DNA from: a virus
Strand: one strand, 5' to 3'
Virus record (IMG/VR): IMGVR_UViG_3300037322_000244
Coordinates: 1-27,997 of that record
DNA length: 27,997 bases
How positions within the stretch are numbered: the first letter of the stretch is position 1; each line of letters begins with the position of its first letter. The notes under the pieces were generated by a model. It was given only the letters and a program-made list of their open reading frames with translations. It ran no database searches and was not told the DNA's origin. Both the position numbers and the translations under genes were made by a program. Below, piece after piece: positions 7,793 through 25,463 of the stretch.

Positions 7793-7821
7793 TTGACAGT
7801 CACCGCTATTTTGAATATACG
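7793..7821 (+). promoter_or_regulatory. Promoter P2 (TTGACA-N17-TATACG) before the tail-tip operon
   Basis: TTGACA (7793-7798), 17 bp, TATACG (7816-7821). The spacer carries ACCGCTATTTT, shared with the promoters at 13306, 17336 and 25435. The start of transcription would fall near 7828, about 16 nt before the distal tail gene, whose ribosome binding site is AGAAGGA at 7831-7837. The site lies in the short gap after the tape measure stop codon. Confidence 0.82.
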
Positions 7822-7843: not shown

Positions 7844-8446
7844 ATGGAAATTACAACCTTTCACGATGTCCGATTTCCGGAGGACATCAGCTATGGCTCG
7901 TCCGGTGGGCCCGGCTTTAACACGAGTGTGATCGATCTGGCGTCTGGCCACGAGCAACGCAACATCAATTGGTCGCTGGCCCGTGCCAAGTATGACGCAT
8001 CTTACGGCGTCAAAACTCGCGAGCAGATGGAGGAAGTCCTTGACTTTTTCTATGCACGGCGCGGTAAGGCATTTGGTTTTCGCTTCAAGGACTGGATGGA
8101 TTATATCCTAGAACGGCAATCAATCGGTATTGCCGGTGGGACCAACATTCTGCAAACCTTCAAGCGTTATGAACCCCTGACCAGCTATTTTTATGACCGA
8201 CCGATCATGAGGATTGTCCCGGACAGTGTTCAAGTATGGACAAACGGGGTTGAGCGTTCACCGCTCTTGGTGAACACTGGAACAGGTATTGTCAACACAA
8301 CCGGATACGCCGGTCAGACGATCGAAGTGGCTTGCGAGTTTGATGTGCCTGTCCGTTTCGACACCGATGACATTAGTATCACCCACGATGACTGGGAACT
8401 GATGTCGTGGCCTTCCATCCCCCTCATTGAACTGCGTCCGCGATAA
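7844..8446 (+). CDS. Distal tail protein, DUF2460 family (GTA gp12-like)
   Basis: This 200-aa protein matches the DUF2460 pattern: an N-terminal FPEDISYGSSGGPGFNTSV segment, then QRNINWSLARAKYDASYGV, then FFYARRGKAFGFRFKDWMDY, and a C-terminal PVRFDTDD...WPSIPLIEL. In alphaproteobacterial gene transfer agents the equivalent forms the ring that joins the tail tube to the baseplate hub. Its length is normal for the family. AGAAGGA precedes the ATG. It is the first gene of a unit that continues with the hub, peptidase and tip genes (gaps of 3 nt or overlaps). Confidence 0.92.
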   Translation: MEITTFHDVRFPEDISYGSSGGPGFNTSVIDLASGHEQRNINWSLARAKYDASYGVKTREQMEEVLDFFYARRGKAFGFRFKDWMDYILERQSIGIAGGTNILQTFKRYEPLTSYFYDRPIMRIVPDSVQVWTNGVERSPLLVNTGTGIVNTTGYAGQTIEVACEFDVPVRFDTDDISITHDDWELMSWPSIPLIELRPR

Positions 8447-8449
8447 ACC

Positions 8450-9304
8450 ATGAAAGCCATCAGCATTGAGCTATCGAACCACCTCGACGGCGAGGTCACC
8501 ACCCTAGCCTCGTGCTGGCGGGTGGTTCGCCGCGACGGCCGGGAGTTTTATTTCACGGATCACGACCAAGACATCGTGTTCGAGGGTAACACCTACGAAG
8601 CGGAATCAAGCTACGACCGAACAGCCGTGTCTAACGGATCGGACCTGAGTGTCGATAACATGGACGTTTCCGGCATCCTTGATTCCGAGAAGATCAGCGA
8701 AGAGGACATGCGCAACGGTTTGTTCAATCGGGCCGATGTCTATATCTTCATCGTGAACTGGGCAAATCCGGAATATGGGCCGCTTAAGGTGCGACGCGGT
8801 TGGTTCGGCGAAGTGACTATTACCGACATTGGTATGTTTACAACCGAAATTCGTGGCCTTGCTCAAGCACTGTCGCACAACTTCATTGAAGTTTATTCAG
8901 CCGAGTGCCGGGCCGACTTCGCAGATTTCAGATGTAAGCTGAACATCGCCGATTACGAGATCGCTACCACCGTGTTAGTGGCGTTCCAGCGTGACTCTTT
9001 CATCCTCCCCGTAGGTTTTGTCCCACCTTCCCAAGGACTCGCGCCGGGCACCGTTCGCTTTGTCAACGGAGCAAACGCAGGTCGGACGGTCGAGATCACA
9101 GGCTATAACCCAAGCACACGGACTGTCGAGTTGTTCGAAAGCGTGGGTTACGAGATCATTGAAGGCACGGCAATTATGGTCGCCCCCGGCTGCGACGGAT
9201 CACTCGTGCGCTGTAAGCTCTACAATAACGTCATCAATCGCCGGGCAGAAGATTACGTTCCCGGCAACGACGAGTTCATGAAGTATCCCGATGCCAACCA
9301 GTAA
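8450..9304 (+). CDS. Tail hub protein, DUF2163 family (GTA gp13-like), possible Fe-S site
   Basis: The 284-aa protein has the DUF2163 layout: N-terminal half with RDGREFYFTDHDQDIVF and a SDLSVDNMDVSGIL segment, then FTTEIRGLAQALSHNF, then the two-part cysteine region CRADFADFRC and, near the C-terminus, PGCDGSLVRCK, ending YVPGNDEFMKYPDANQ. Four cysteines in this arrangement recall the C-terminal cysteine domain of lambda gpL, which binds an iron-sulphur cluster; that these do the same is inference. Together with the distal tail protein it would form the hub between tube and tip. It starts 3 nt after the DUF2460 stop and overlaps the peptidase gene by 14 nt. Confidence 0.9.
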   Translation: MKAISIELSNHLDGEVTTLASCWRVVRRDGREFYFTDHDQDIVFEGNTYEAESSYDRTAVSNGSDLSVDNMDVSGILDSEKISEEDMRNGLFNRADVYIFIVNWANPEYGPLKVRRGWFGEVTITDIGMFTTEIRGLAQALSHNFIEVYSAECRADFADFRCKLNIADYEIATTVLVAFQRDSFILPVGFVPPSQGLAPGTVRFVNGANAGRTVEITGYNPSTRTVELFESVGYEIIEGTAIMVAPGCDGSLVRCKLYNNVINRRAEDYVPGNDEFMKYPDANQ

Positions 9305-9707
9305 CGACTTCATCGCAGCGGCGCGCTCCTACATGGGCGTCAAGTGGCGTCATCAGGGCCGCAACCAGATGGGGGTTGATTGCGTTGGTCTGGTGTTATG
9401 CTGTCTCGACGAAATTGGCATACCTGCTCCTGACATGCAAGGATACCGGCGGACACCTGATCCGATATTTGTTGAACATATCCGGAACAACTCGCTATCA
9501 TCCACAACAACCGATCCGGGTATGCTGGGCATCTTCCGCGACGGAACCCAACCATGCCACGTCGGAATCTTTGCGACCATGTATGGTCAAACTTCACTGA
9601 TCCACGCCTATGCTGGCACCGGGATCGTCATGGAAGAAGTCTTCATCCACGACTGGCCGAATAAGCTGGTTGAGGTCCGCGCATTCAAGGGACTTGAATA
9701 CATCTAA
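9291..9707 (+). CDS. NlpC/P60 tail peptidase (GTA gp14-like)
   Basis: This 138-aa protein has the NlpC/P60 cysteine peptidase signature: GVDCVGLV with the likely nucleophile Cys31, then HVGI with His90 and LIHAYAG with His105. In GTA-like and lambda-like tails this enzyme (compare gpK) opens the peptidoglycan, probably cutting peptide cross-links, during tail tip insertion. Its start lies within the end of the DUF2163 gene and its TAA stop overlaps the next ATG as TAATG, so the three genes are translationally coupled. Confidence 0.92.
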   Translation: MPTSNDFIAAARSYMGVKWRHQGRNQMGVDCVGLVLCCLDEIGIPAPDMQGYRRTPDPIFVEHIRNNSLSSTTTDPGMLGIFRDGTQPCHVGIFATMYGQTSLIHAYAGTGIVMEEVFIHDWPNKLVEVRAFKGLEYI

Positions 9708-12700
9708 TGGGACAACTTGCGACCACCATTGCTGGCGGTGTCATCGGCTTCGCGATCGGCGGGCCTTTCGGGGCTCAGGTCGGGATGATGCTTGGCGGCA
9801 TGATCGGTGCCACGTTGTTTGGTCCCACGGTTCATGGCCCCCGTCTGAACGATCTCAAGGTGACAGCCTCGACTTACGGTGTAGCTATCCCAGAAATCTA
9901 TGGCACCGTCCGATTAGGTGGTAACCTGATCTGGACAAGCGGGATTCGGGAGAACAGGAAATCTTCACGCCCCGGAAAGGGCGGCCCTAAGCAGGTTACC
10001 TATTCTTACGACGCCACATTCGCTATGTCCTTGTGCAAAGGGGAGATCGAGGAAATTCTCCGCATATGGGCTGATAGCAAGATCATCTACGACAAGACCG
10101 GGGGCACAACTAGAACACCCACACCTGCGGGAGGCAGTAGCGTATTCCAGACAATTATTGTTGAACTACTCTCCTCTAAAAAGAAGAAGAAGAACGTTAA
10201 CCTCAGGTTTTACCGTGGTGATGAAAATCAACTCCCCGACTCGCTAATCGAAGCGAAGGAGGGGGTAGGTAATGTATCCGGCCACCGTGGGTTGGCTTAT
10301 GTCGTGTTCGAAAGACTTGAACTAGAGAACTTCGGCAACCGTATCCCACAGATGACCTTCGAAGTCACCAAGGCTCGCACCCGTGGTTTGTCTGCTCTCC
10401 CGGTGCGTGATCGTAGCGGACTTGTGGAAGATACCAGCAACCGTGATTGGCTACCTGATTTTGCGTCGGGACGTTTACTGAGCTTTGATCGGGCGGGGAA
10501 TGGTGTGAAGCTCTACACGAGTGCAGATAATACATTGGTCGCTGAAAACGAGGCTATGACCTTTGACCTGACGGACAAGTCCTACAGCCTCGTTGAGGGG
10601 CAAAACTCATTGATTGTGGCTAATTTCCCAAGCGGGGTCGGTTTCTCATATTACAACACAGCCATCCTGACCAAAATCAACGAATATAATTCCTCCAGCG
10701 GGACAGACAACGTTTGGGACCCGGCTACACAACAGATCACACTTTCCACCGCAGGGAAGATTGGCCACGGTCGGTTTGTATCGGGCTCATCTGGTAGCTT
10801 ACACATTCTTCACAGCGACGCAGCCGGCAAGACCTTTTTGATGGACAGCGGCGGCCGCTTACTCGATGAGTTTACAGCGCCATTCCAGCCGGACGTGTTC
10901 CTCGAAGGTCGCCGCGATGCGACTAACTCCCAGATTATCGGTTGGCGTTTCGCCAACGATCGCCTCGAAATGTTTGAGGTCAAAACCAAAGCGTCTGCCC
11001 TGTATACCACGATCCTAGAGGGAGCGAACGAGGTCTGGTTTCCGACAACCGAATATGAGATGCGGGTCATCAATCTCAAGCCCTACCCGGACTCGAAGTT
11101 CCAGCCGCTTGTGCTGCTCTACGATCCGACCGATGATCATTTCTTCTGTCTAGGTGTCGATCCAGACAAATATAATGACACGGGAGCGTTCGGGAACGGT
11201 GGCGGCGTCGTCGTGTTCAAATATTCCTTGGCAACAAACAGCTACAAGTTCTTGGTGAGCCACCCCGGCACTCCAGTTCCTCGCGACCTCGCACAGAATA
11301 TGCGGGTTTCCCGCCTCGCTGGCAGCTCTTTCGGGTGGGTGGGTAAGCCGGCGGTTGGGTCCCCGACCGTAAATCAAGTAAGCTTGCAGACGGGGAGTCT
11401 CGAAAATCTCTTCGAGGCCCAAGACGATTTCGGCTCTGGACTCACAGGCGGAGGGGATCAGTATTGGGATGACGAAACGGACAGCATTTTTGCAGAGCGC
11501 ACAGTAGCTGGTGTGACCAACAGCTACCGAATCCGCCTGAGTGATAGCGTTTCTCAGGTCACAGTGCCAGAGATCGTGGCAGACATCTGCCTCCGGTCAG
11601 GCGTGCTATTACCGCAGGACATCGATATAACCGAGTTGGAATCACGCCAGCTTGTAGGTTATTCATTGGACCGGCTGACCACTGCTCGGGACGCCTTGAA
11701 GCAGTTGGCGACCGCGTTCCTTTTCGATGCCTTTGAAAGCGATTACAAGCTCAAGTTCCGTTCACGTGGTGGTGATTCCGTGGTTAACATCACAGAAGAT
11801 TGGTTGGCGCGCGACGGGCAGGATGGTATTATCAAAGAGACCATCACGCAAGAGCTTGAGATGCCGCTCAAGGTGACAGTGAACTACTACGACATAGACC
11901 GCGACCACCAGCAAGGATCACAATCTTCGAGACGCAATTCCGGACCGTTCCCAACTATGTGGACGGCCAAGGAAGACCTGATCGATTTGCCCATCACATG
12001 GGATGCAGACTCGGCTAAGCAATCGGCTGACAAGCTGCTCAAGATGGCATGGGCCAACCGGATTGGACACCAGTTCAGCTTACCTTGGCGCTATCTGCAA
12101 TATGATCCTACGGATGTCGCTACCATCACGCTGGAAAATGAGACAACCTACAACCTCCGTCTTACCGAGGCGAACATCGGCTCCAACTTCTCGATCGAGG
12201 CTACAGCAGTCAGCGAAGTTGCTACTGCCTATGTCTCAACTGCTACCGGTGCCAAATCGCCGGCTCCCATCCAGACCCTACCGGATGATGGAAGTGCCTT
12301 CCCGATTGTTATCAATACGCCGCTGCTGCGTGATGTCGATTACGATACCACCGGCTCTTCGACGTGTTATTTCTCCGCTGGGACCAACGAGGTGTCTTTC
12401 AATGGCGCGGCGGTCTATATCGACGACGGAAGTGATTATCAGGTGGTAGGTATCATCGATGGTCAGACCACCACCGGCTACGTCATCGACGCATTACTAC
12501 CGACAAATAGCTACGAAGCGACCGATGAGACTACCATTATACGGGTGCGGTTGACTGATCCCACTATGGAACTGGAATCGGTAACCCAGAACGACATTCT
12601 CAACTTCGAAGCTAACTCCGCTTTGGTGGGTAATGAGATTATCCAGTTCCGGGATGCTACCCTACTTCCAACAGGTGAGTGGGCTCTGTCTGGCATCCTT

Positions 12701-13309
12701 CGCGCGCGCCGAGGCACTAACTACGCGGTCATGGATCACCAACCGGGGGAGACCTTCTTGCTGGTCAATACCACTTCGACTGGGAAATTCACAAGACCCC
12801 CTGAGAGCTACTTTACGACTCGCTTGTTCAAGGCTGCCCCTATATCGGTGTCGTTGTCGGATGTTGTCCCTGTCTCTGTGGTCTTGACCCCACGCGACCT
12901 TATGCCATACACACCTGAGGCTGTTAAGGTGACCGATGACGGAACCGGTGCAGTAATCAGCGCTGAACGTCGTTCACGCGTCACAGCGGGCCTGAGAGAC
13001 GGTGTGGGCACCATTCATTACAGAGAAGGGGACATGCTCAGTGCCCGGATTGTGACCAAGGTCTGGTTCGGTAAGGGGATCGCAGATGTTGGCACGATAG
13101 GTGAACCGGATGTAACCTCGACGAACTATTTGTTTGACGCCGCTGGACAGGATATTCCCATTGAAGCCAGCTTCCCGGTCGCCTCGTTGGGAGCAGAAGA
13201 CACGATCCTGATCAAATTGGCTGAGATTGGTGAGGTGGAGGGAACGCCCAAATGGGTGCAAGCCATTCGCTATGGGACAGACCTGTGGGACCTCCGTGAA
13301 TTGTATTGA
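9707..13309 (+). CDS. Tail tip / central hub protein 1 (megatron-like), copy 1 of two
   Basis: This 1200-aa protein is the largest tip component and holds the position of GTA gp15 or lambda gpJ. Residues 1-40 form a Gly-rich hydrophobic segment (IAGGVIGFAIGGPFGAQ), which could insert into a membrane or pack in the hub channel. Residues 41-222 are a conserved structural domain ending NFGNRIPQMTFEV. Residues about 225-615 form a beta-rich, propeller-like central region. Residues about 620-690 (VPEIVADICLRSGV, then FDAFESDYKLKFRSRG) resemble the Phage-tail_3 domain, and residues to about 1040 include LRARRGTNYA and PRDLMPYTPEAVKV, usual in this family. It is paralogous along its length to the protein at 13779-17339. 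A lysine run (residues 158-162) lies in the N-terminal domain. Its TGA stop (13307-13309) lies inside the -35 box of the next promoter. Confidence 0.9.
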   Translation: MGQLATTIAGGVIGFAIGGPFGAQVGMMLGGMIGATLFGPTVHGPRLNDLKVTASTYGVAIPEIYGTVRLGGNLIWTSGIRENRKSSRPGKGGPKQVTYSYDATFAMSLCKGEIEEILRIWADSKIIYDKTGGTTRTPTPAGGSSVFQTIIVELLSSKKKKKNVNLRFYRGDENQLPDSLIEAKEGVGNVSGHRGLAYVVFERLELENFGNRIPQMTFEVTKARTRGLSALPVRDRSGLVEDTSNRDWLPDFASGRLLSFDRAGNGVKLYTSADNTLVAENEAMTFDLTDKSYSLVEGQNSLIVANFPSGVGFSYYNTAILTKINEYNSSSGTDNVWDPATQQITLSTAGKIGHGRFVSGSSGSLHILHSDAAGKTFLMDSGGRLLDEFTAPFQPDVFLEGRRDATNSQIIGWRFANDRLEMFEVKTKASALYTTILEGANEVWFPTTEYEMRVINLKPYPDSKFQPLVLLYDPTDDHFFCLGVDPDKYNDTGAFGNGGGVVVFKYSLATNSYKFLVSHPGTPVPRDLAQNMRVSRLAGSSFGWVGKPAVGSPTVNQVSLQTGSLENLFEAQDDFGSGLTGGGDQYWDDETDSIFAERTVAGVTNSYRIRLSDSVSQVTVPEIVADICLRSGVLLPQDIDITELESRQLVGYSLDRLTTARDALKQLATAFLFDAFESDYKLKFRSRGGDSVVNITEDWLARDGQDGIIKETITQELEMPLKVTVNYYDIDRDHQQGSQSSRRNSGPFPTMWTAKEDLIDLPITWDADSAKQSADKLLKMAWANRIGHQFSLPWRYLQYDPTDVATITLENETTYNLRLTEANIGSNFSIEATAVSEVATAYVSTATGAKSPAPIQTLPDDGSAFPIVINTPLLRDVDYDTTGSSTCYFSAGTNEVSFNGAAVYIDDGSDYQVVGIIDGQTTTGYVIDALLPTNSYEATDETTIIRVRLTDPTMELESVTQNDILNFEANSALVGNEIIQFRDATLLPTGEWALSGILRARRGTNYAVMDHQPGETFLLVNTTSTGKFTRPPESYFTTRLFKAAPISVSLSDVVPVSVVLTPRDLMPYTPEAVKVTDDGTGAVISAERRSRVTAGLRDGVGTIHYREGDMLSARIVTKVWFGKGIADVGTIGEPDVTSTNYLFDAAGQDIPIEASFPVASLGAEDTILIKLAEIGEVEGTPKWVQAIRYGTDLWDLRELY

Positions 13310-13334
13310 CAACCACCGCCATTTTCACTATACA
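13306..13334 (+). promoter_or_regulatory. Promoter P3 (TTGACA-N17-TATACA) before the short fiber gene
   Basis: TTGACA (13306-13311), 17 bp containing ACCGCCATTTT, TATACA (13329-13334). The predicted start near 13341 lies about 17 nt before the ATG at 13358. The stop codon of hub protein 1 is the TGA within the -35 hexamer. Confidence 0.82.
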
Positions 13335-13357
13335 CTCTCCTCAATTTAGGACGGATA

Positions 13358-13759
13358 ATGCCCAACACACCGCTTCTCAATATCCCGCAAGTTTCGGCTT
13401 CCCAGAACAACAAAGAAATCACCATCAACGATTCCATCCTCGCACTGGAAAATGCGACGAATGCAAATCTCTCGGTCTCGTTCGCAGGTGGGAGCACTGT
13501 CACCCTCACAGCGACACAAGCCACCCGGAACTTCGTCTATACCGCCACCGGGGCGTCCGGTGCAAGCACGCTGCGCTTCCCAAACACGATCGGTGCCACC
13601 CTCTTTAATCGCGCGGTATGCGTCCGTAACACCAGCGGTGCCGTCTTGACAGTCAGCTTTCAGACAGGAACTGGTGCATCTGTGGAAATCCCAGATGGAC
13701 AAGCTCGTTTGATCTTGGCCGTCAGCGGAACTGACATGATCGTGGTTTCCGCACCTTAA
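13358..13759 (+). CDS. Short fiber-anchor protein, paralog of the long fiber N-terminus
   Basis: The 133-aa protein aligns along its whole length with residues 1-132 of the 1284-aa fiber at 17388: both begin MP-TP-L, share QVS-SQN-KE-TINDAILALENA-like text, then TRN, FNR/YNR, VRN and IPDG(Q/E)(A/S)RLI. I judge roughly half the residues identical. The QxxKExTxNxAxxxL pattern near the start resembles the N-terminal motif of DUF2793-type tail fiber proteins, which attach a fiber to the tip. Here the distal fiber part is absent and the gene ends cleanly with TAA, so it could be a tip-binding cap, a competitor of the long fiber or the remnant of a second fiber. AGGACGG (13348-13354) is a good ribosome binding site. 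Confidence 0.75.
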   Translation: MPNTPLLNIPQVSASQNNKEITINDSILALENATNANLSVSFAGGSTVTLTATQATRNFVYTATGASGASTLRFPNTIGATLFNRAVCVRNTSGAVLTVSFQTGTGASVEIPDGQARLILAVSGTDMIVVSAP

Positions 13760-13778
13760 TTTCAGATAGTCAAAACTC

Positions 13779-16700
13779 ATGGGACAACTTGTAACCACCA
13801 TTGCTGGCGGTGTCATCGGCTTCCTGATCGGTGGCCCTATGGGCGCGTCTATCGGTATAGCGCTCGGTGGTATGGTTGGGGCAACTCTGTTCGGACCGAC
13901 GATCAAAGGCCCGCGCCTCAATGACCTTAAGGTCTCTTCTTCGACCTACGGGATTGCGATTCCCGAAATCTACGGGACCGTTCGGATCAGCACGAACTTG
14001 ATCTGGACCAGCGGGATCAAGGAAACTAAGAAGACGCGCCGCGCCGGCAAGGGAGGTCCCAAGGTAGAGACCTACGCCTACGACGCATCGTTTGCACTCG
14101 GGCTGTGTAAGGGCCCGATCCGACAGATACTACGAATCTGGGCGGACAGTAAACTCATCTATGATGTCAGCAACAACGCGACTCGCAATCCAGTTAACGC
14201 GGGGCAGTCAGGAATCTTCGCACCTGACTTGTTGTCTTTTGGAACCGGCAGCAATAAAAAGAAAAGAGTCAATCTTCGTATCTACTTAGGTAACGAAGAG
14301 CAGCTTCCGGATTCCTTGATCGTATCGGACAGGGGAGTCGGTAATGTATCGGCGCACCGTGGGCTGGCTTATGTCGTGTTCGAGCGGCTACAGCTTGAGG
14401 ACTTCGGTAACCGTATTCCTCAGTTCACCATGGAAATAACTAAATCACCCTCCGAGGCGTTCCCTTCCGTTGTGGTTAAGGAAGGCCCAGCAGGAACAGC
14501 TTTACAAGCAGATGCACGAAACTGGTTCCCTGATTGGGAAAATGGAAAAGTATATTCCAGCATCATCTCTAACTCTGTGCAAGACAGCTACACCGAAGTG
14601 TTTGATCTAAACACTATGCAAGTGACACAGCGTTGGAATAGTTCCAGTATGTGGTTCACAGGGCGTTATGGCTTTGCTCCATGGGCTGGGGTATTCCTTA
14701 AAGATGATGGTTCTGGTAACTCACGATTTCTGGAAGTTTATAGTCTAAGAACAGGCAGCCGAACTAGTCAGTTTGGACTACAATCGCGATCACTTTCCGG
14801 TTTCTACGTAGAGAGTGGTCCAGCTAGAGGGGCGCTGGCTTTATCAGCCAATTTTGGTAACCAAGCCACAATAACACGCGATGGTAAGTTTATTGTTCTT
14901 GCGGGCTGGGCCCGTGACAACTGGATACTATCAAGTGGGGGCACACCTCTTGGGTGGTATAAAGGCGCGTGGTCCCCTCAACACCTTCTCCCCGCACTTG
15001 GATCAGTGTGGGGTTGGCGCAACGGTAATAACGGACTACAAATCGCTGACTTCCTCTCAGGGGGTATCGGGCAAAATGGCAGGGCCCCGCCCGACAGCAG
15101 TGGTAACGTTTTCTGGACGCAAGGCGGGAGCCTAGCGTTCAACACAACTTTGCAGCCTCTATCCGGAGAAAGCTACCAAGCATCGATTTGCCTCTTCGAC
15201 CCCTCGGATGGTCATTTTTTCAGCATCGGTAGATCGAGCAACGGCGTTCGATCGATTCCTGTTGCGTTCAAATATAACCCATTGAATGGGATATACAAAT
15301 TCATCAAAAGCAACCCTGAAATTCTGGTCCCTAACGGTCCTATGCAATGGACCCGTTTGAATGGGGGAACTTTTGGGTATATTGCTGATAGACTCAATAG
15401 AAATATCAAAGCAAATTTACAACAAATTAACCTGCAAACAGGTGATATTGTAAAGGATACACCTTATGGTAATACGTGGGGCGGTCCTCTTTGGGTGCGT
15501 AGTGAACAGCACTGGGATGATGTTAGCGCAAGTATTATTACAACCACACTAGACACTTTTCGTCGTATCTGGTTCAACGACAATGCGAAGGCGGTGAGAC
15601 TGTCTGACGTTGTTAGAGATATTGCTACCAAATCAAATGTATTAGTCACATCTGATGTCGATACAACCGGTTTGTTCAACGAGGAGATCATTGGTTTTGC
15701 CATTGATCGTCAATCATCAGCGGCTGACGCTCTGAAACTACTGGCTACCGGATTTATGTTCGATGCCTTTGAAAGCGATTACAAACTCAAGTTCCGCACG
15801 CGTGGGCGCGACTCCGAAGTCGTGATCCCGCAGGATTGGCTTGGTCGGCCCGATGAAGAAATCATTAAGGAAAACATTGTCCAAGAGCTTGAGATGCCGC
15901 TCAAGGTGACAGTGAACTACTACGATACTTCTCGGGATCACCAGCAAGGATCACAATCTTCGAGACGCAATTCCGGACCGTTCCCAACTATGTGGACGGC
16001 TAAGGAAGACATTATAGACTTACCACTGGTGTGGTCACCAGACATGGCTAAGCAATCGGCTGATAAGCTTCTCAAGATGGCGTGGGCCAACCGGGTCGGC
16101 CTGCAATTCAGCTTGCCTTGGCGCTATCTGAAATATGACCCCTCAGACACTATCACGATCACTACTGACAAAGCGGTTTATTTCACCCGCCTGACTGAGG
16201 TTCGGATCGGTCAAGATTTTTCGATCGAGGCTTCCGGGGTCACTGACAAAGCTAGTGCTTATGTCTCTACGAAAGTAGGGAGCCGGGTAGAGCCGCCTGC
16301 ACAGATTATCGCGGAAGGTTATCCGGCTTTTCCGATCGTTATCAACACTCCTTTACTGCGTGATGAAGATTACGACACGAGCGGTGCCTCTGCCTGCTTC
16401 GTATCAGCGGGGACCGACGCGTTCACGTTCAGCGGAGCCTCTATCTACGTTTACGACGGCATCGAAGATCAGCAAGTTGGCTTCATCGGAGCCGACACGG
16501 TGCGCGGTCGTGTCATAAACGAACTACCCTACACGACTGCATACGAATCGACCGACGAATCCACAGTTCTCCGGGTAGTCCTGAGCAATCCAAACGATGA
16601 ACTTGAATCAGTAACCCAACTTGATATGCTTAACTTTGACATGAATGCAGCATTGGTGGGTGAAGAAGTTATTCAGTTCCGTGACGCCATCCTCCAGTCC

Positions 16701-17339
16701 AATGGTGAGTGGTGGTTGTCTGGACTGCGCCGGGCAAGACGCGGGACTAACTACGCGTTGCGAACACACATCCCGAACGAAATCTTCTTGTTGTTGGAAC
16801 CAGAAGCGACCACCTCATTTGTGCGTCCGCCAGAGGCTTACGTGACGACCACAGAAATCCGGGCTGTAGCAGCCGGGCAGGACAGCGTGGATGCGCTCCC
16901 GACAATAGCTTCGCTCCAGCCTCGTGATCTTATGCCTTACACACCAGAGGACATCAAGATCGACGACGATGGGACGAACGTGACCATCGAGGTTCAGCGA
17001 CGGTCGCGGATCATTGCCCCGCTCCGAGACGGGATCAGCAACATCCATTTCAAAGAAGGGGCAAAACAGACTTCAAAAATAGCTTGCCAAGTGTGGCCGG
17101 GTCGCGGCTTTGAAGTGATTGACACCACCCTGCCCCCGGCTTTTGTCCAGCATGTTCCGATATTCGATTCGAACGGCCAAGACCGGACTTTGGAAATCAC
17201 ATTCCCCCTCACGTCCCTTGGGGCTTCTACGCAACTCGTAGCCCGCATCACCGAACAGGGGGTGGTAGATGGTATTGCTAAGTGGCTTCGTTTCGAGCGG
17301 GTCGGTGAAGGACGTTGGAACCAGACCGAATTTTATTGA
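13779..17339 (+). CDS. Tail tip / central hub protein 2, copy 2 of two
   Basis: This 1186-aa protein is a full-length paralog of hub protein 1: MGQL(A/V)TTIAGGVIGF start, YAYDASFALGLCKG, GVGNVSAHRGLAYVVFERL, FDAFESDYKLKFRTRG, ELEMPLKVTVNYYD, LRRARRGTNYALR and PRDLMPYTPEDIKI. N- and C-terminal thirds are close; residues about 225-600 are strongly diverged but still alignable in places (LFDPSDGHFF versus LYDPTDDHFF). The DNA of the central part is AT-rich: 42 G+C of 120 bases at 15361-15480. The ATG at 13779 has no clear ribosome binding site, unlike copy 1, which is coupled to the peptidase by TAATG. The TGA stop (17337-17339) again lies inside the next -35 box. It likely forms an alternative or second tip hub. 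Confidence 0.88.
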   Translation: MGQLVTTIAGGVIGFLIGGPMGASIGIALGGMVGATLFGPTIKGPRLNDLKVSSSTYGIAIPEIYGTVRISTNLIWTSGIKETKKTRRAGKGGPKVETYAYDASFALGLCKGPIRQILRIWADSKLIYDVSNNATRNPVNAGQSGIFAPDLLSFGTGSNKKKRVNLRIYLGNEEQLPDSLIVSDRGVGNVSAHRGLAYVVFERLQLEDFGNRIPQFTMEITKSPSEAFPSVVVKEGPAGTALQADARNWFPDWENGKVYSSIISNSVQDSYTEVFDLNTMQVTQRWNSSSMWFTGRYGFAPWAGVFLKDDGSGNSRFLEVYSLRTGSRTSQFGLQSRSLSGFYVESGPARGALALSANFGNQATITRDGKFIVLAGWARDNWILSSGGTPLGWYKGAWSPQHLLPALGSVWGWRNGNNGLQIADFLSGGIGQNGRAPPDSSGNVFWTQGGSLAFNTTLQPLSGESYQASICLFDPSDGHFFSIGRSSNGVRSIPVAFKYNPLNGIYKFIKSNPEILVPNGPMQWTRLNGGTFGYIADRLNRNIKANLQQINLQTGDIVKDTPYGNTWGGPLWVRSEQHWDDVSASIITTTLDTFRRIWFNDNAKAVRLSDVVRDIATKSNVLVTSDVDTTGLFNEEIIGFAIDRQSSAADALKLLATGFMFDAFESDYKLKFRTRGRDSEVVIPQDWLGRPDEEIIKENIVQELEMPLKVTVNYYDTSRDHQQGSQSSRRNSGPFPTMWTAKEDIIDLPLVWSPDMAKQSADKLLKMAWANRVGLQFSLPWRYLKYDPSDTITITTDKAVYFTRLTEVRIGQDFSIEASGVTDKASAYVSTKVGSRVEPPAQIIAEGYPAFPIVINTPLLRDEDYDTSGASACFVSAGTDAFTFSGASIYVYDGIEDQQVGFIGADTVRGRVINELPYTTAYESTDESTVLRVVLSNPNDELESVTQLDMLNFDMNAALVGEEVIQFRDAILQSNGEWWLSGLRRARRGTNYALRTHIPNEIFLLLEPEATTSFVRPPEAYVTTTEIRAVAAGQDSVDALPTIASLQPRDLMPYTPEDIKIDDDGTNVTIEVQRRSRIIAPLRDGISNIHFKEGAKQTSKIACQVWPGRGFEVIDTTLPPAFVQHVPIFDSNGQDRTLEITFPLTSLGASTQLVARITEQGVVDGIAKWLRFERVGEGRWNQTEFY

Positions 17340-17364
17340 CAATAACCGCTATTTTAGATATACA
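17336..17364 (+). promoter_or_regulatory. Promoter P4 (TTGACA-N17-TATACA) before the long fiber and lysis genes
   Basis: TTGACA (17336-17341), 17 bp containing ACCGCTATTTT, TATACA (17359-17364). The predicted start near 17371 is about 17 nt before the ATG at 17388, the same leader length as P3. No other member of the family was found until 25435, so this promoter may drive the fiber, surface and lysis genes together. Confidence 0.82.
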
Positions 17365-17387
17365 GTGACACCCTTATAGAGAGGCTT

Positions 17388-20300
17388 ATGCCAACCACCC
17401 CCATCCTCGGTATTACGCAGGTTTCAACTTCCCAGAACGGGAAAGAGACCACGATTAACGACGCCATCTTGGCGTTGGAAAACGCGTCCAACGCCAAGTT
17501 GGCTGTGTCGCTGGCTGCTGGGAATGTGACACTGAGTGTCCCAGAATCCACCCGAAATTACATTTTCACAGCCGCTGGTGCTTTAGCAGCTAGTGAATTG
17601 ATTTTCCCGACCTCCGTGAATGGGAATCCATACAATCGGGTTATTGTCGTTCGGAACGTAAGCGACCACGGACTCACAGTTCGGTTTGCCTCTGGTGGTG
17701 GTTCTTCCGTCACGATCCCGGACGGGGAGTCGCGGCTAATCAGCGCTTCCGAAGGTATGGACATGACCGTGGCCGCTGAGCCGCCGAGCGTCATTACTTT
17801 CCTGTCTTTGACGGATGCTCCCGACACTTTCACTGGCCAGACTGGGCGTTTCCTATCGGTAAACGTAGCAGAAGATGCTTTGGAATTTGTAGACGCGGCT
17901 GTCTTCCCTACCCTAACAGACAACGCCAATCGGTTCCTCCGCGTCAACTCCGGCGCAACCGGCGTTGAGTGGGCTGTGGTTGATTTCGCAGGAGCCTTTA
18001 CCGAACTTACTGATACACCCAGCAGCTTCGCCGGACAAGGTGGTAAACTCGTTAGGGTAAACAACCTCGCAACCGGGCTGGAGTTTGTTGAAGCAACGGA
18101 CGCGGAAGCAGTTAACTTCCAGCAAGCCAGTCGCTGGCGCATCCTCCTGCTTGAGCCGGGTGACTGGCCGGCAAATCCTCCGGGGACTTTGCCGGGCGAT
18201 CCTGATTATATCCAGCAGACCGATCAGGTTGGCTTTGGTGAAGTCGAGTTTCTAGACCAAGATGGAATCGACTTGGCCGTTGGTGGAACGGCATATGCGT
18301 CAAACTTCCTTACTGGTAATGAGCCGTCGCGTGCGTTCAACAACAACACGGACCCAGCAGACGGGTGGCTGACAGAAGACACCTACACCGGGAACGTGTG
18401 GCTCGAATACGACTTTGGGTCTGCTGTGACGCCGCGCCGGGTCCGCTTGACTTCGATCAACACGTTCCCTCAGTATGGCACAACTCGCTTCCTGATACAG
18501 TATTGGGACGGTAGCGCTTGGATCAGCTTAGGTGACCGGTCACCAGCTCCTTGGGAAACCGGTGTTGCACAGTCTTTTAAGATCAATGGCATTCCACTAG
18601 ATTTTCTGGAAGAAGCTCCATCAAATGGTTCTCTCTACGGGCGCATCAACGGTGAGTGGTTAAAGATAAATGCCGAAGTTGTTTCGGTCAACACCACTTC
18701 GTATAATCTTGCATCTACAGATACTTTCCAATATCGCAGGTTCACGAACGCCGGGACTAAAACCCTCAACATCCGGACAAACACCGACCACTCGATGCCA
18801 TCGGACGGCGAGTGGTATATCTATAATGCCGTAGGCGCTGCGTTGAACATCACCCCCGCTGTGGGTGTGACGGTGAACGCGCCGGCTGGGGGTTCTTTGA
18901 CTGTGCCCCTCAACGGCACTATCCGGATCAAGCGGGTCGCTGTGGATGTTTATGATGTCTTCGGGGACACTGTGTCGTCAGAGGCTGGTGGTGCTGGTGA
19001 CATTCCATCAATCATTGGTAATGCCAGTAAAATCCTTGCTGTAAAAACAGACGCAACCGGCATCGAGTGGATTACACAACCAATACCATACACCGACGAA
19101 CAAGCTCGTGACACAATCGCAGCGGCTTTGGTGGCTGGGACAAACGTCACTATCACAAACAACGACGTTGCAAACACAATCACGATTTCTGCTGCTTCAA
19201 TCGGATTGAATGCTGAGGAAGTTCGCGACACCATTGGAACTGCCCTCAGAGGCAGTGGCAATATCGCAGTGTCCGTAAACGACGTTGCAAACACAATCAC
19301 GATCTCGACCAGTGCTTTGGATGCCGAAGGCGTCCGGGACACTATCGGTGCCGCTCTGGTGGCCGGTTCGAACATGGCTATTAGCGTAAACGATTCGGCG
19401 AACACCATCTCGCTCGCGGCTACGATGAATGTGGAAGTTATTCAAGACATCGTGGCTACTACCTTGGTGGCTGGTTCCAACGTTTTGATCACTTACGATG
19501 ATGTAGCTAACACAATCACCATCGATTCACTAGGAGGCGGTGGTGGGGGTGGCCTAGATTCAGAACAGGTTCGAGACGTTATTGGCGCAGCCCTTGTGGC
19601 TGGTAGCAACATCACGATCAACGTTAATGATGCGGCCGACACGATCACAATTGACGCAGCGACTGATCCTGAGGTGGTGCGGGACACCGTAGCATCCGCG
19701 CTGGTGGCAGGGACGAACGTAACCATCAACAACAATGATGGGGCCAACACGATCACGATCTCGGTCGCGATGGATCAAGAGGTAATCCGTGACACAGTAG
19801 CCGCCACTTTGGTAGCTGGGACTAACATAACGATCACCCCAAATGATGCCGCTAACACCATCACGATCGCATCCACCGGAGGAGGAGGCGGGTCTACCGA
19901 CCCGGAAGTCGTGCGCGACACTATGGCAGCCGCTCTGGTGGGAGGCACCAACGTCACGATCACACCTAATGACTTGGGCGACACGATCACGATCTCAGCA
20001 ACAGGTGGGCTTGACGCCGAAGCTGTTCGAGACACGATCGGAGCCGCGTTGGTGGGCGGCACTAACGTCACTATTGATGTCAACGATGCTGCCAACACGA
20101 TCACCTTTAGCGCGGCGACCAACCCTGAGACAATTCGAGATACAATGGGAACCGCGTTGGTTGCCGGCTCGAACATTGGTATTTCGGTTAACGATGGTGC
20201 TGACACCATCACCATCTCAGCTACTACCGACCAAGAGGTAGTCCGAGATACGATCGCTGCGGCTCTGGTGGCCGGCACTAACGTGACTATCAACCATGAC

Positions 20301-21242
20301 GACGTAGCCAACACTATAACGATCGCGGCACCAACCGATACCGAGACCGTGCGTGACACCATCGCGACAGCTTTGGTAGCTGGTTCTGGTATCACCATCA
20401 CAGTAGACGACGCGGCTAACACCATTACGATCAGCACCGACGGGGCTGCTAGCCTGTCTGAATTGTCAGATGTCGATACGACTACCGCGCCTCCACTAGG
20501 TGGGCAGGCGTTGATCTTCAACGACATCACTGACAAGTGGGAACCGGGCACTGTCTCAGGTGGTGGGGGTGGGAGTGCCTACCTACCTATCACGACCGAG
20601 TCTGGGACAACCTACGACCTACCTGCATCGACGGCTGGTCGTTATACCCGCTTCACTGCGGTGACGACCAAGACCGTCAATATCCGTCCAGAGGCTGATG
20701 AAGCCCTACCGAGTGATGCTGAGTGGCATTTCAAGAATGTAGGGGCTGGTAACTTGTTATTGTCGGCTGTGTCCGGCGTCACGATCAATGCCCCAGCCAG
20801 CGGTTCTTTGATTGTGCCTCCGGGTGGTGTTGTTACCTTAAAAAGGACTTCGGCCGATAATTTTGATTTGTTCGGCACCACCATCGATAGCTCCGGAACT
20901 TTCCCTTATTCCTTACCGTTTGGATTCGTGTCTAAGCCTCTGGGTAATGAGACACTTCTTATCCATGTTTTCGCTGAGGATGTTACTTTCTCAGGAAATT
21001 TTAGTCTGTCGCGAGGATCGATCGGAACTAACCCAACAGCAACAACGGATATGTTGGTAAAAAAGAATGGAACAAACGTCGGCGCAGTAAGCGTATCAAC
21101 CGCTGGTATTGTTTCATTCTTCACAACAGGGGGCACGCCTGTGTCTTTTGTAGTGGGCGACGTTTTGACTGTTGTGGCGCAAGACCCAGCAGATGAAACG
21201 ATAGCTAATTCTGCTTTCACGCTCAGAGGAGCTAGAAACTAA
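17388..21242 (+). CDS. Long tail fiber / receptor-binding protein with 12 tandem repeats
   Basis: The 1284-aa protein is modular. Residues 1-132 are the anchor domain shared with the 133-aa protein upstream. Residues about 138-245 hold three LTD-P-F-GQ-G-LRVN-TGLEF-type repeats. Residues about 300-385 (PSRAFNNNTDPADGWLTED, then WLEYDFG and RVRLTS) look like an F5/8 type C (discoidin) sugar-binding domain. A roughly 100-aa domain occurs twice, at about 430-529 and 1066-1165 (MPSDGEWYIYN versus LPSDAEWHFKN; VNAPAGGSLTVP versus INAPASGSLIVP), bracketing twelve repeats at 571-1017. Residues 1170-1284 (LLIHVFAEDVTFSGNF, NGTNVGAVSVS, FVVGDVLTVVAQDP) match a C-terminal domain common in phage fibers. 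It probably trimerises and binds the host surface. The start is preceded by AGAGAGGC. Confidence 0.9.
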   Translation: MPTTPILGITQVSTSQNGKETTINDAILALENASNAKLAVSLAAGNVTLSVPESTRNYIFTAAGALAASELIFPTSVNGNPYNRVIVVRNVSDHGLTVRFASGGGSSVTIPDGESRLISASEGMDMTVAAEPPSVITFLSLTDAPDTFTGQTGRFLSVNVAEDALEFVDAAVFPTLTDNANRFLRVNSGATGVEWAVVDFAGAFTELTDTPSSFAGQGGKLVRVNNLATGLEFVEATDAEAVNFQQASRWRILLLEPGDWPANPPGTLPGDPDYIQQTDQVGFGEVEFLDQDGIDLAVGGTAYASNFLTGNEPSRAFNNNTDPADGWLTEDTYTGNVWLEYDFGSAVTPRRVRLTSINTFPQYGTTRFLIQYWDGSAWISLGDRSPAPWETGVAQSFKINGIPLDFLEEAPSNGSLYGRINGEWLKINAEVVSVNTTSYNLASTDTFQYRRFTNAGTKTLNIRTNTDHSMPSDGEWYIYNAVGAALNITPAVGVTVNAPAGGSLTVPLNGTIRIKRVAVDVYDVFGDTVSSEAGGAGDIPSIIGNASKILAVKTDATGIEWITQPIPYTDEQARDTIAAALVAGTNVTITNNDVANTITISAASIGLNAEEVRDTIGTALRGSGNIAVSVNDVANTITISTSALDAEGVRDTIGAALVAGSNMAISVNDSANTISLAATMNVEVIQDIVATTLVAGSNVLITYDDVANTITIDSLGGGGGGGLDSEQVRDVIGAALVAGSNITINVNDAADTITIDAATDPEVVRDTVASALVAGTNVTINNNDGANTITISVAMDQEVIRDTVAATLVAGTNITITPNDAANTITIASTGGGGGSTDPEVVRDTMAAALVGGTNVTITPNDLGDTITISATGGLDAEAVRDTIGAALVGGTNVTIDVNDAANTITFSAATNPETIRDTMGTALVAGSNIGISVNDGADTITISATTDQEVVRDTIAAALVAGTNVTINHDDVANTITIAAPTDTETVRDTIATALVAGSGITITVDDAANTITISTDGAASLSELSDVDTTTAPPLGGQALIFNDITDKWEPGTVSGGGGGSAYLPITTESGTTYDLPASTAGRYTRFTAVTTKTVNIRPEADEALPSDAEWHFKNVGAGNLLLSAVSGVTINAPASGSLIVPPGGVVTLKRTSADNFDLFGTTIDSSGTFPYSLPFGFVSKPLGNETLLIHVFAEDVTFSGNFSLSRGSIGTNPTATTDMLVKKNGTNVGAVSVSTAGIVSFFTTGGTPVSFVVGDVLTVVAQDPADETIANSAFTLRGARN
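19098..20440 (+). repeat. Twelve in-frame tandem repeats of about 36 codons in the long fiber
   Basis: Each unit follows the pattern E-(V/A/T)-(V/I)-RDT-(I/V/M)-(A/G)-x-ALVAG(T/S)N, then (V/I)-x-I, then ND-(A/V/G)-ANTITI. Most units are 35-37 residues (about 108 bp); two are lengthened by glycine-rich linkers (after units 4 and 7). The DNA copies are diverged, so this is an old array kept by selection on protein sequence. Such repeats are expected to build a beta-helical or fibrous shaft whose length changes by unequal recombination. Confidence 0.9.
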
Positions 21243-22288
21243 TGATACTTAATTTCGAGCATTTTGATCTTTATGGTTTAGATGAGCCTTCCCTGTATTT
21301 GAGAGGATACTCTGCTAGTGGCAATAATCCTCTCCTAATCAATACAGTATCAAGAACAGGAACACACTCTTTACGTATGAGCTCCTCTGGGGGTGTTTTT
21401 TCTTTTATTACGTATGCCCTTCCGGGGACTGCGCGCACCACTTGTGGGCAGGGTTGTGGTTTTCAAGTTACCTCAAGTCCAAATGCCACTTCACCTAGCG
21501 GAACGCCCGGTCTTTTCTTTGGTGATGCGTCGAGCATCAGCGCTATCAGATGCATTATTGGGCAGAATAACACGCTATGTGTTTACCAAGGAGCAACCTT
21601 AAGAGGAACCAGCTCTGTTAATGTATTCACATTCGGAGCTTGGTTCTGGCTTGAGGCAAAAGTTATCATTGGAGCAGGTGCAACTTCTTCGGTCGAAATT
21701 AGAGTAAATGGTGCATCCGTTCTGCTTGTAACTGGTTTGACTATTGCATCTAATATCACACGTTGCTCGTTTGGAACCGCTGGATCGAATAGCGGTTGGG
21801 GCCTAATGTATGTGGATGACTGGGTTATCTGGGACACCGCTGGTAGTGTTAACAACGATTGGCTTGGTGATACTTTTGTGATCGTATCAGACCCTGAATC
21901 CGATGCTACAGCAAACGACTGGGTGGCATCAACAGGAACCACAAAATGGCCTTTAGTTGATGAAAGAACCCCATCTGATACGGACTTCATCACTGGTAAT
22001 GCTGTCAACGACACACAAGAGCTTGAGATGGCTAGTGTAAGCCTCCCAAGCACAGGTGGGATTATCGGCGTCGCTTCCCAAGCGCGGGCTTTCAAGTCCG
22101 ATGCTGGTTCGTCAACGATCACGATAGGCGTTGCCAGTGCTAGCTCAAATAATTCCAGTGCAGGTATCAACCTAGGGACCGGGGCGCAGGTATTCTCTCA
22201 TCTAGCTGAGGTAAACCCTGACGGGGGTATCGGTTGGACAGTAAGCACAGCCCAAGCAGCCCGCTTTAGGGTCCGTCGGACCGCATGA
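21242..22288 (+). CDS. Predicted surface/tail protein with lectin-like fold
   Basis: The 348-aa protein is beta-rich, low in charge and without a signal peptide. Residues about 1-200 (GTHSLRMSS, then GFQVTSSP, LFFGDASS, WFWLEAKVIIG, VEIRVNGASVLLVTGLT, MYVDDWVIWD) have the strand pattern of concanavalin A/LamG-like domains. Residues about 200-348 (FVIVSDPESDATANDWVASTG, YxxVDE-like KWPLVDERTPSDTDFI) match a tail-associated segment seen in other phages. It begins in TAATG overlap with the fiber stop and ends in ATGA overlap with the next gene. The first part is AT-richer than the tail genes. It is probably a minor tip or decoration protein that contacts surface sugars; this is inference from fold pattern and position. 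Confidence 0.65.
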   Translation: MILNFEHFDLYGLDEPSLYLRGYSASGNNPLLINTVSRTGTHSLRMSSSGGVFSFITYALPGTARTTCGQGCGFQVTSSPNATSPSGTPGLFFGDASSISAIRCIIGQNNTLCVYQGATLRGTSSVNVFTFGAWFWLEAKVIIGAGATSSVEIRVNGASVLLVTGLTIASNITRCSFGTAGSNSGWGLMYVDDWVIWDTAGSVNNDWLGDTFVIVSDPESDATANDWVASTGTTKWPLVDERTPSDTDFITGNAVNDTQELEMASVSLPSTGGIIGVASQARAFKSDAGSSTITIGVASASSNNSSAGINLGTGAQVFSHLAEVNPDGGIGWTVSTAQAARFRVRRTA

Positions 22289-25242: not shown

Positions 25243-25438
25243 ACTGGTTTGTATGGATGCACCAGCCGGGCAATTACCGACCACCGCAACCAACGGAACG
25301 GTAAGTGATCGGATCGCAGGGATCGACGAATCCGGGGAGGACTGCCGGCAGCGTCTGGGACGGGTGAAGACCAAGATTGAAATCTTCAACGAGGTGGTGG
25401 CCACCATTAATGCAGGCAAGGAACCGAAAAAGGATTGA
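25136..25438 (+). CDS. Outer-membrane lipoprotein spanin (Rz1-like)
   Basis: The ATG at 25136 gives a 100-aa lipoprotein precursor MLKPLLLSLILSMSLTAC with lipobox LTAC and Cys18 as the acylated residue; an in-frame ATG at 25088 would put 16 extra residues before the signal and is less likely. The gene starts inside the i-spanin gene in a different frame and runs 196 nt past its end, the overlapping Rz/Rz1 type. Two further cysteines (in LVCMD and EDCRQRL) could form disulphide-linked dimers. The 3' end reads ERK-like KKD then TGA, which is part of the next -35 hexamer. Confidence 0.88.
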   Translation: MLKPLLLSLILSMSLTACARDATRVEFLTPTFRSDELVCMDAPAGQLPTTATNGTVSDRIAGIDESGEDCRQRLGRVKTKIEIFNEVVATINAGKEPKKD

Positions 25439-25463
25439 CAACCACCGCAATTCTTAATATACA
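25435..25463 (+). promoter_or_regulatory. Promoter P5 (TTGACA-N17-TATACA) before thyX
   Basis: TTGACA (25435-25440), 17 bp containing ACCGCAATTCT, TATACA (25458-25463). The predicted start near 25470 leaves a leader of about 84 nt before the thyX ATG, longer than for P3 and P4. The o-spanin stop codon TGA (25436-25438) lies in the -35. Confidence 0.82.

Follow-up and report, generated by a model that had tools for sequence, protein, structure and literature searches.

The central tip protein caps the phage tail and opens the host cell, and siphophages are generally taken to have one obligatory homotrimer as their central tip. Why, then, does one siphophage locus hold two full-length genes for this protein, and what might the second be for? 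We addressed this in a 28-kb virus record holding a siphophage tail module, analysed over its whole length of 27,997 nucleotides (the window). The virion of a relative, R4C, contains exactly three megatrons, as the central tip protein is known in this family, and nine fibres (PMC10276861). The preliminary description of the locus had reasoned that such phages usually need one central tip trimer, and R4C bears this out; two genes for one socket are thus a real puzzle. The genes concerned are:

7844..8446, plus strand: distal tail protein Dit, Rcc01695 family (TIGR02217, 2e-51; PF09343); once in the window.
8450..9304, plus strand: baseplate hub, Rcc01696 family (TIGR02218, 2e-48; PF09931); once in the window.
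9291..9707, plus strand: NlpC/P60 tail peptidase (PF00877, 5e-9); once in the window.
9707..13309, plus strand: megatron (central tail-tip protein) copy 1, 1200 aa (PF13550, 2e-30; PF23666 Rcc01698_C, 4e-19).
13358..13759, plus strand: stand-alone fibre-anchor protein A1, 133 aa (55.6% identical to fibre residues 1-132, E=3e-43).
13779..17339, plus strand: megatron copy 2, 1186 aa (PF13550, 2e-27; PF23666, 2e-15; 45% identity to copy 1).
17388..21242, plus strand: tail fibre, 1284 aa, comprising by sequence comparison anchor A2 (1-132), a repeat-rich shaft and a C-terminal tip domain.

These genes are preceded by tail tube, tail assembly chaperone and tape measure genes, and followed by further tail proteins, an amidase, a thyX-like gene and a DNA ligase; the order Dit, hub, NlpC peptidase, megatron occupies 7844-13309. 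DNA comparison gave 79% identity to Erythrobacter phage XM05 over 27% of the query, with Sphingobium phage Lacusarx as a further relative. The source phage is of marine type, and the window comprises its tail module; it belongs with the Lacusarx/XM05-like (phiCbK-related) siphophages of alphaproteobacteria. A gene transfer agent was ruled out, this being a virus record, with phages of 104-152 kb (complete genomes) as its nearest relatives. Separately, a canonical slippery site (GGGAAAC, 2590-2596) lies just 5' of the stop of the tail assembly chaperone frame, which ends at 2599, and the -1 frame is open to 3027, predicting a G/GT-type frameshift product.

The duplicated protein is the megatron, the central tail tip of RcGTA-like siphophages, and not the baseplate hub; the hub label first given to it was wrong, the hub homolog (TIGR02218) being the single gene at 8450-9304. 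Both copies exceed the gathering scores of PF13550 (Phage-tail_3) and PF23666, and match NF048004 (GTA_megatron) at 391.6 bits (E 8e-117) for copy 1 and 367 bits for copy 2, short of the equivalog cut-off of 800 bits; on these profile scores they are relatives of the GTA megatron, not its equivalogs. Megatron 1 matches the RcGTA protein (6tba/6teh, E 4e-70) and that of R4C (8gtc) by profile. In Foldseek the top match of its AlphaFold model is 8gtc_M, and the model core matches the siphophage central tip proteins of R4C, JBD30, Chi, RcGTA, T5 and lambda, the model being of moderate confidence (mean pLDDT 73.7, pTM 0.42) and poor over much of the central domain. Residues 1-40 are glycine-rich and hydrophobic in both copies, a candidate iris or penetration helix, and a helix is predicted at 2-38 of megatron 1; in a 2026 preprint the central helices of RcGTA are attributed to the tape measure protein instead. 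As to the true hub, its length varies from 284 aa in the window and 283 aa in Microcystis phage Mwe-JY26 to 464 aa in XM05 (window 8450-9304 compared with L004 27891-29285), and in L02 the annotation of the homolog is F5/8 type C domain protein; an insertion thus differs among relatives.

The two paralogs had been described as full length and about 4.07 kb apart, and the reading frames confirm this: their starts lie 4,072 bp apart and their products are 45.4% identical over 1235 columns (blastp, E=0). An assembly artefact is rejected, since the copies are only 45% identical and the same order recurs in XM05 and other assemblies. Nor is this phage alone in having the duplication. Orthologs of both copies occur in XM05 and in the IMG/VR contigs 3300009424_11, 3300049198_21, 3300025839_30 and 3300000271_10, arranged each time as tip, anchor, tip, fibre. 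We left 3300025839_30 out of the genome count because its proteins match those of 3300009424_11 in every listed score, which gives five two-copy genomes: the window, XM05, 3300009424_11, 3300049198_21 and 3300000271_10. Records searched whole held two megatrons in the latter four and one in RXM, L02, Lacusarx and four viral contigs, these being the single-copy relatives that the preliminary description had proposed to look for; some relatives escape the alignment-query scans, and the shortness of many contigs prevents a count of copies in them.

Both megatrons are open and full length in 5/5 two-copy genomes, and across these genomes copy 1 and copy 2 each form a 100/100 clade, so that the split predates XM05. 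A recent duplication is rejected, the copies having separated before the XM05 and window lineages parted. The grouping of the two copies together, to the exclusion of RXM and L02, has support of 82/86, and an older duplication with later loss was not rejected (AU p 0.06 and 0.17); on these trees the split likely postdates RXM and L02. Within-copy dN/dS is about 0.04-0.07 for both copies, with dS saturated. The pair is thus old and both copies are maintained, as distinct orthologous groups of intact genes. A second megatron pair exists in the giant Dolichocephalovirinae (Gurke, CcrSC, Colossus, CcrPW), there as adjacent genes followed by anchor and fibre; Gill et al. reported the duplicated phiCbK gp99 homolog of Colossus in 2012 (PMC3556154). 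A single duplication common to the window lineage and Colossus is rejected, the two pairs falling into separate 100-supported groups, and the giant-phage duplication is accordingly independent in the tree.

How much was duplicated is a harder question, and it turns on the junctions between tip and fibre genes. Each had been said to carry the same promoter, and the same promoter-like sequence is indeed present at both, with two more copies elsewhere in the window:

7793..7821, plus strand: further copy of the motif, 5' of Dit, hub, peptidase and megatron 1.
13306..13334, plus strand: putative junction promoter J1, TTGACA-N17-TATACA, 5' of anchor 1 and megatron 2; its -35 box overlaps the megatron 1 stop.
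17336..17364, plus strand: putative junction promoter J2, TTGACA-N17-TATACA, 5' of the fibre; its -35 box overlaps the megatron 2 stop.
25435..25463, plus strand: further copy of the motif, 5' of the thyX-like gene.

The overlapped stop is TGA at both junctions, and place and spacing are identical in 5/5 two-copy genomes (the -35 box being TTGACT in XM05). Every tip gene of the clade has TTGACW-N17-TATAC overlapping its stop codon, and so have the single ones of RXM, L02 and v7987; this arrangement therefore predates the duplication. The clade of the window and XM05 also conserves the spacer (CACCGC-N-ATTYT), and the resulting 28-bp motif, TTGACW-N2-CACCGC-N-ATTYT-N3-TATAC, occurs 2-4 times per clade record examined, at 7793, 13306, 17336 and 25435 in the window; a reversed control pattern had 0 matches in 6 records, and XM05 has no match to the longer motif upstream of Dit. 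A generic sigma-70 scan showed no excess (17 found vs 15.9 expected) and omitted both junction sites because TATACA fails its last-base rule. We infer from sequence that the junction motifs act as promoters, and an activator, from the phage or from its host, may bind the conserved spacer.

The anchor is shared as first described, the 133-aa protein aligning with residues 1-132 of the fibre, and an anchor follows the tip gene in most loci. The AlphaFold model of A1 (pLDDT 90.6) is a compact helix plus beta domain with weak Foldseek matches to phage tailspikes (best E 3.6e-3); sequence searches of the PDB for anchor relatives gave chance matches only. In XM05, A1 has 244 aa and consists of the anchor plus a 111-aa fibre-tip domain, the latter 43% identical to the C-termini of the XM05 and window fibres (E 3e-22 and 2e-19). 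This layout suggests that a whole tip-plus-fibre unit was duplicated and that copy 1 then lost its shaft. The fibre gene is itself variable: its shaft in the window (17388-21242) has repeats of about 35 aa (RDTIGAALVAGTNVTI...DAANTITI), orthologs range from 1051 to 1909 aa, and the single-megatron contig L030 has two anchor-bearing fibre genes about 6.5 kb apart (13635-17225 and 20135-21658), a fibre duplication without megatron duplication.

The strongest competing account, which we consider unlikely while taking it more seriously than the others below, places the stand-alone anchor outside the duplicated unit, as a short fibre gene of old standing that CbK-like phages have retained. A 280-aa protein of anchor plus tip is encoded by phiCbK, which has a single megatron, and a similar one by Colossus and CcrSC; nor does the anchor tree join A1 with A2 (co-duplication not rejected, AU p=0.10). 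Against this, A1 sits exactly between the two megatrons under the same promoter motif, the tip domain of XM05 A1 resembles the fibres of XM05 and the window more closely than it does the fibre of phiCbK or the short fibres of Colossus and CcrSC (26-36% identity to these), and the giant-phage anchors form a separate clade (99/97). Duplication of the whole unit, as the preliminary description had it, is thus plausible from XM05, and the anchor tree neither supports nor rejects it; the promoter and the short anchor, which had been read as its marks, also occur apart from it, one in single-copy RXM, L02 and v7987 and the other in phiCbK.

Divergence between the megatrons is strongly uneven along their length. 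From the N-terminus, identity is 68% (aa 1-222), 20% (223-620), 64% (621-870), 54% (871-1110) and 33% (1111-1200). The earlier picture of a diverged centre between close ends holds for the N-terminal region and for aa 223-620, and fails for the last 90 residues. Nor is the central divergence peculiar to the pair, since copy 1 and the single-copy RXM protein give a similar series over the same regions (70/27/57/55/41%). A profile like that between single-copy orthologs is no argument for diversification by itself, and fast change of the peripheral domain is a trait of the megatron family. Two features of copy 1 bear on what is specific to the pair:

10373..11566, plus strand: copy 1 peripheral domain, aa 223-620, a predicted copy-specific beta-propeller (AlphaFold all-beta repeats and Foldseek).
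11867..11956, plus strand: gene-conversion tract, copy 2 to copy 1, codons 721-750, central domain (segment score and local tree).

The peripheral domain matches WD40/YVTN propellers such as BBS1 and RACK1 (target TM about 0.5-0.6). Either copy is 39% identical to its XM05 ortholog there and 22-24% identical across copies, so that each has held on to a distinct propeller type from the XM05 split onwards. The iris/adhesin and central regions are 64-68% identical between copies, and the central region of copy 1 is 64% identical to copy 2 and likewise to XM05 copy 1. Within the conversion tract, of at least 90 nt, window copy 1 matches its own copy 2 and not the other copy-1 genes; the best segment score of 23 was reached by 0/20,000 permutations, and the segment tree sets the window copy 1 apart from the other copy-1 rows (bootstrap 99). 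Its placement in the central domain follows from the domain order of RcGTA. XM05 copy 2 has a weaker signal (16/2000 permutations), possibly an older event; a single tract could be neutral.

We propose that megatron, promoter and fibre gene were probably duplicated together in tandem before the lineage split from XM05. The first fibre copy would then have lost its shaft, XM05 retaining anchor and tip domain and the window lineage losing the tip too. Both megatrons keep what would be the parts for building a three-fold tip (iris helix, adhesin-like, central and fibre-binding regions) and differ in the peripheral beta-propeller and the last 90 residues. In RcGTA the binding partner of the central domain is Dit, and the fibres are attached to the fibre-binding domain (PMC7296036). 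Exactly three megatrons in the relative R4C, together with one Dit and one hub gene, point to competition of the two megatrons for one three-fold socket. If both are expressed and assembled, the trimers would be mixed or the virions of two types, so that the tip would offer two kinds of propeller, which might bind receptors and affect host range. The megatron homolog of phiCbK, gp99, is a virion protein by proteomics (PMC3556154); the literature searched held no proteomics or structure of a two-copy phage, and the last 90 aa of the megatron showed no special co-divergence with the downstream anchor (rho 0.35), both of which count against the proposal. We give this reading, unit duplication with competition for one socket and mixed or alternative tips, an even chance. 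Its more specific form, in which the paralogs co-assemble in one C3 socket and display two propeller types on the protein that gates DNA exit, conversion keeps the assembly core alike, the propellers remain distinct, and the arrangement arose twice independently, we hold somewhat more tentatively.

Rather less probable is positional specialisation, with both megatrons in every virion at different fixed positions of a composite tip, for example as a second distal or outer trimer. This would fit the retention of both copies in each of the five genomes and, as an independent case, in giant Dolichocephalovirinae, and also the strongly different C-terminal 90 aa and the separate downstream anchor gene of each copy. 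However, the window has one Dit and one hub gene, R4C has three megatrons, iris and central domains are present in both copies, and conversion in the central domain suits an interface that the two share better than one private to each. A switch of tip type, one megatron being used at a time or under given conditions, could draw on the separate promoter-like motifs 5' of megatron 1 (7793) and of A1 and megatron 2 (13306) and is improbable: one motif common to all sites would predict co-regulation, XM05 lacks the match upstream of Dit, and no inverter, regulator or variable repeat was seen nearby, the window proteins scanned including no DGR reverse transcriptase with template/variable repeats and no DNA invertase with inverted repeats. 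That one megatron is a dispensable duplicate, kept for redundancy or dosage, is equally improbable, for although the single-copy relatives RXM, L02 and Lacusarx are viable phages, the low dN/dS of both copies (with dS saturated), the full-length frames in five genomes and the copy-specific propellers conserved since the XM05 split all argue against it.

Among known systems the closest is Erythrobacter phage XM05 (PV416404), which has a cultured host, Erythrobacter sp. JL475. It shares the arrangement of megatron, anchor protein, megatron and fibre with the promoter in the same position, is orthologous copy by copy (54% and 53%), and differs in the longer A1 with its fibre-tip domain (244 aa), in the fibre (1909 aa) and in the hub (464 vs 284 aa). 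CcrColossus gp122/gp123 (PMC3556154) and the pairs of CcrSC, CcrPW and Gurke are likewise two paralogous megatrons, there duplicated independently and adjacent, with no anchor gene between. A duplicated tip protein was hence already known from Colossus; what is new is the independent second case, the fibre gene between the copies and the evidence of conversion. Literature on Bertelyvirus and Colossusvirus tails and tip duplication offered nothing useful beyond Gill et al., and the literature searched held no functional account of either duplication. RcGTA Rcc01698 (6tba/6teh) and the R4C megatron (8gtc) share family, core domains and the order Dit, hub, peptidase, megatron, and unlike the window have a single copy. 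The peripheral domain of the RcGTA megatron is a TIM barrel (PMC13420450), in contrast to the beta-propeller predicted here.

Phages such as K1-5 and CBA120 carry several receptor-binding proteins. If tips alternate, the window phage would resemble them in having more than one receptor-binding option, although their extras are peripheral fibres or spikes and not the central tip that gates DNA exit. Two lineages independently keeping divergent tips would show that the central tip, too, can be diversified, as side fibres are.
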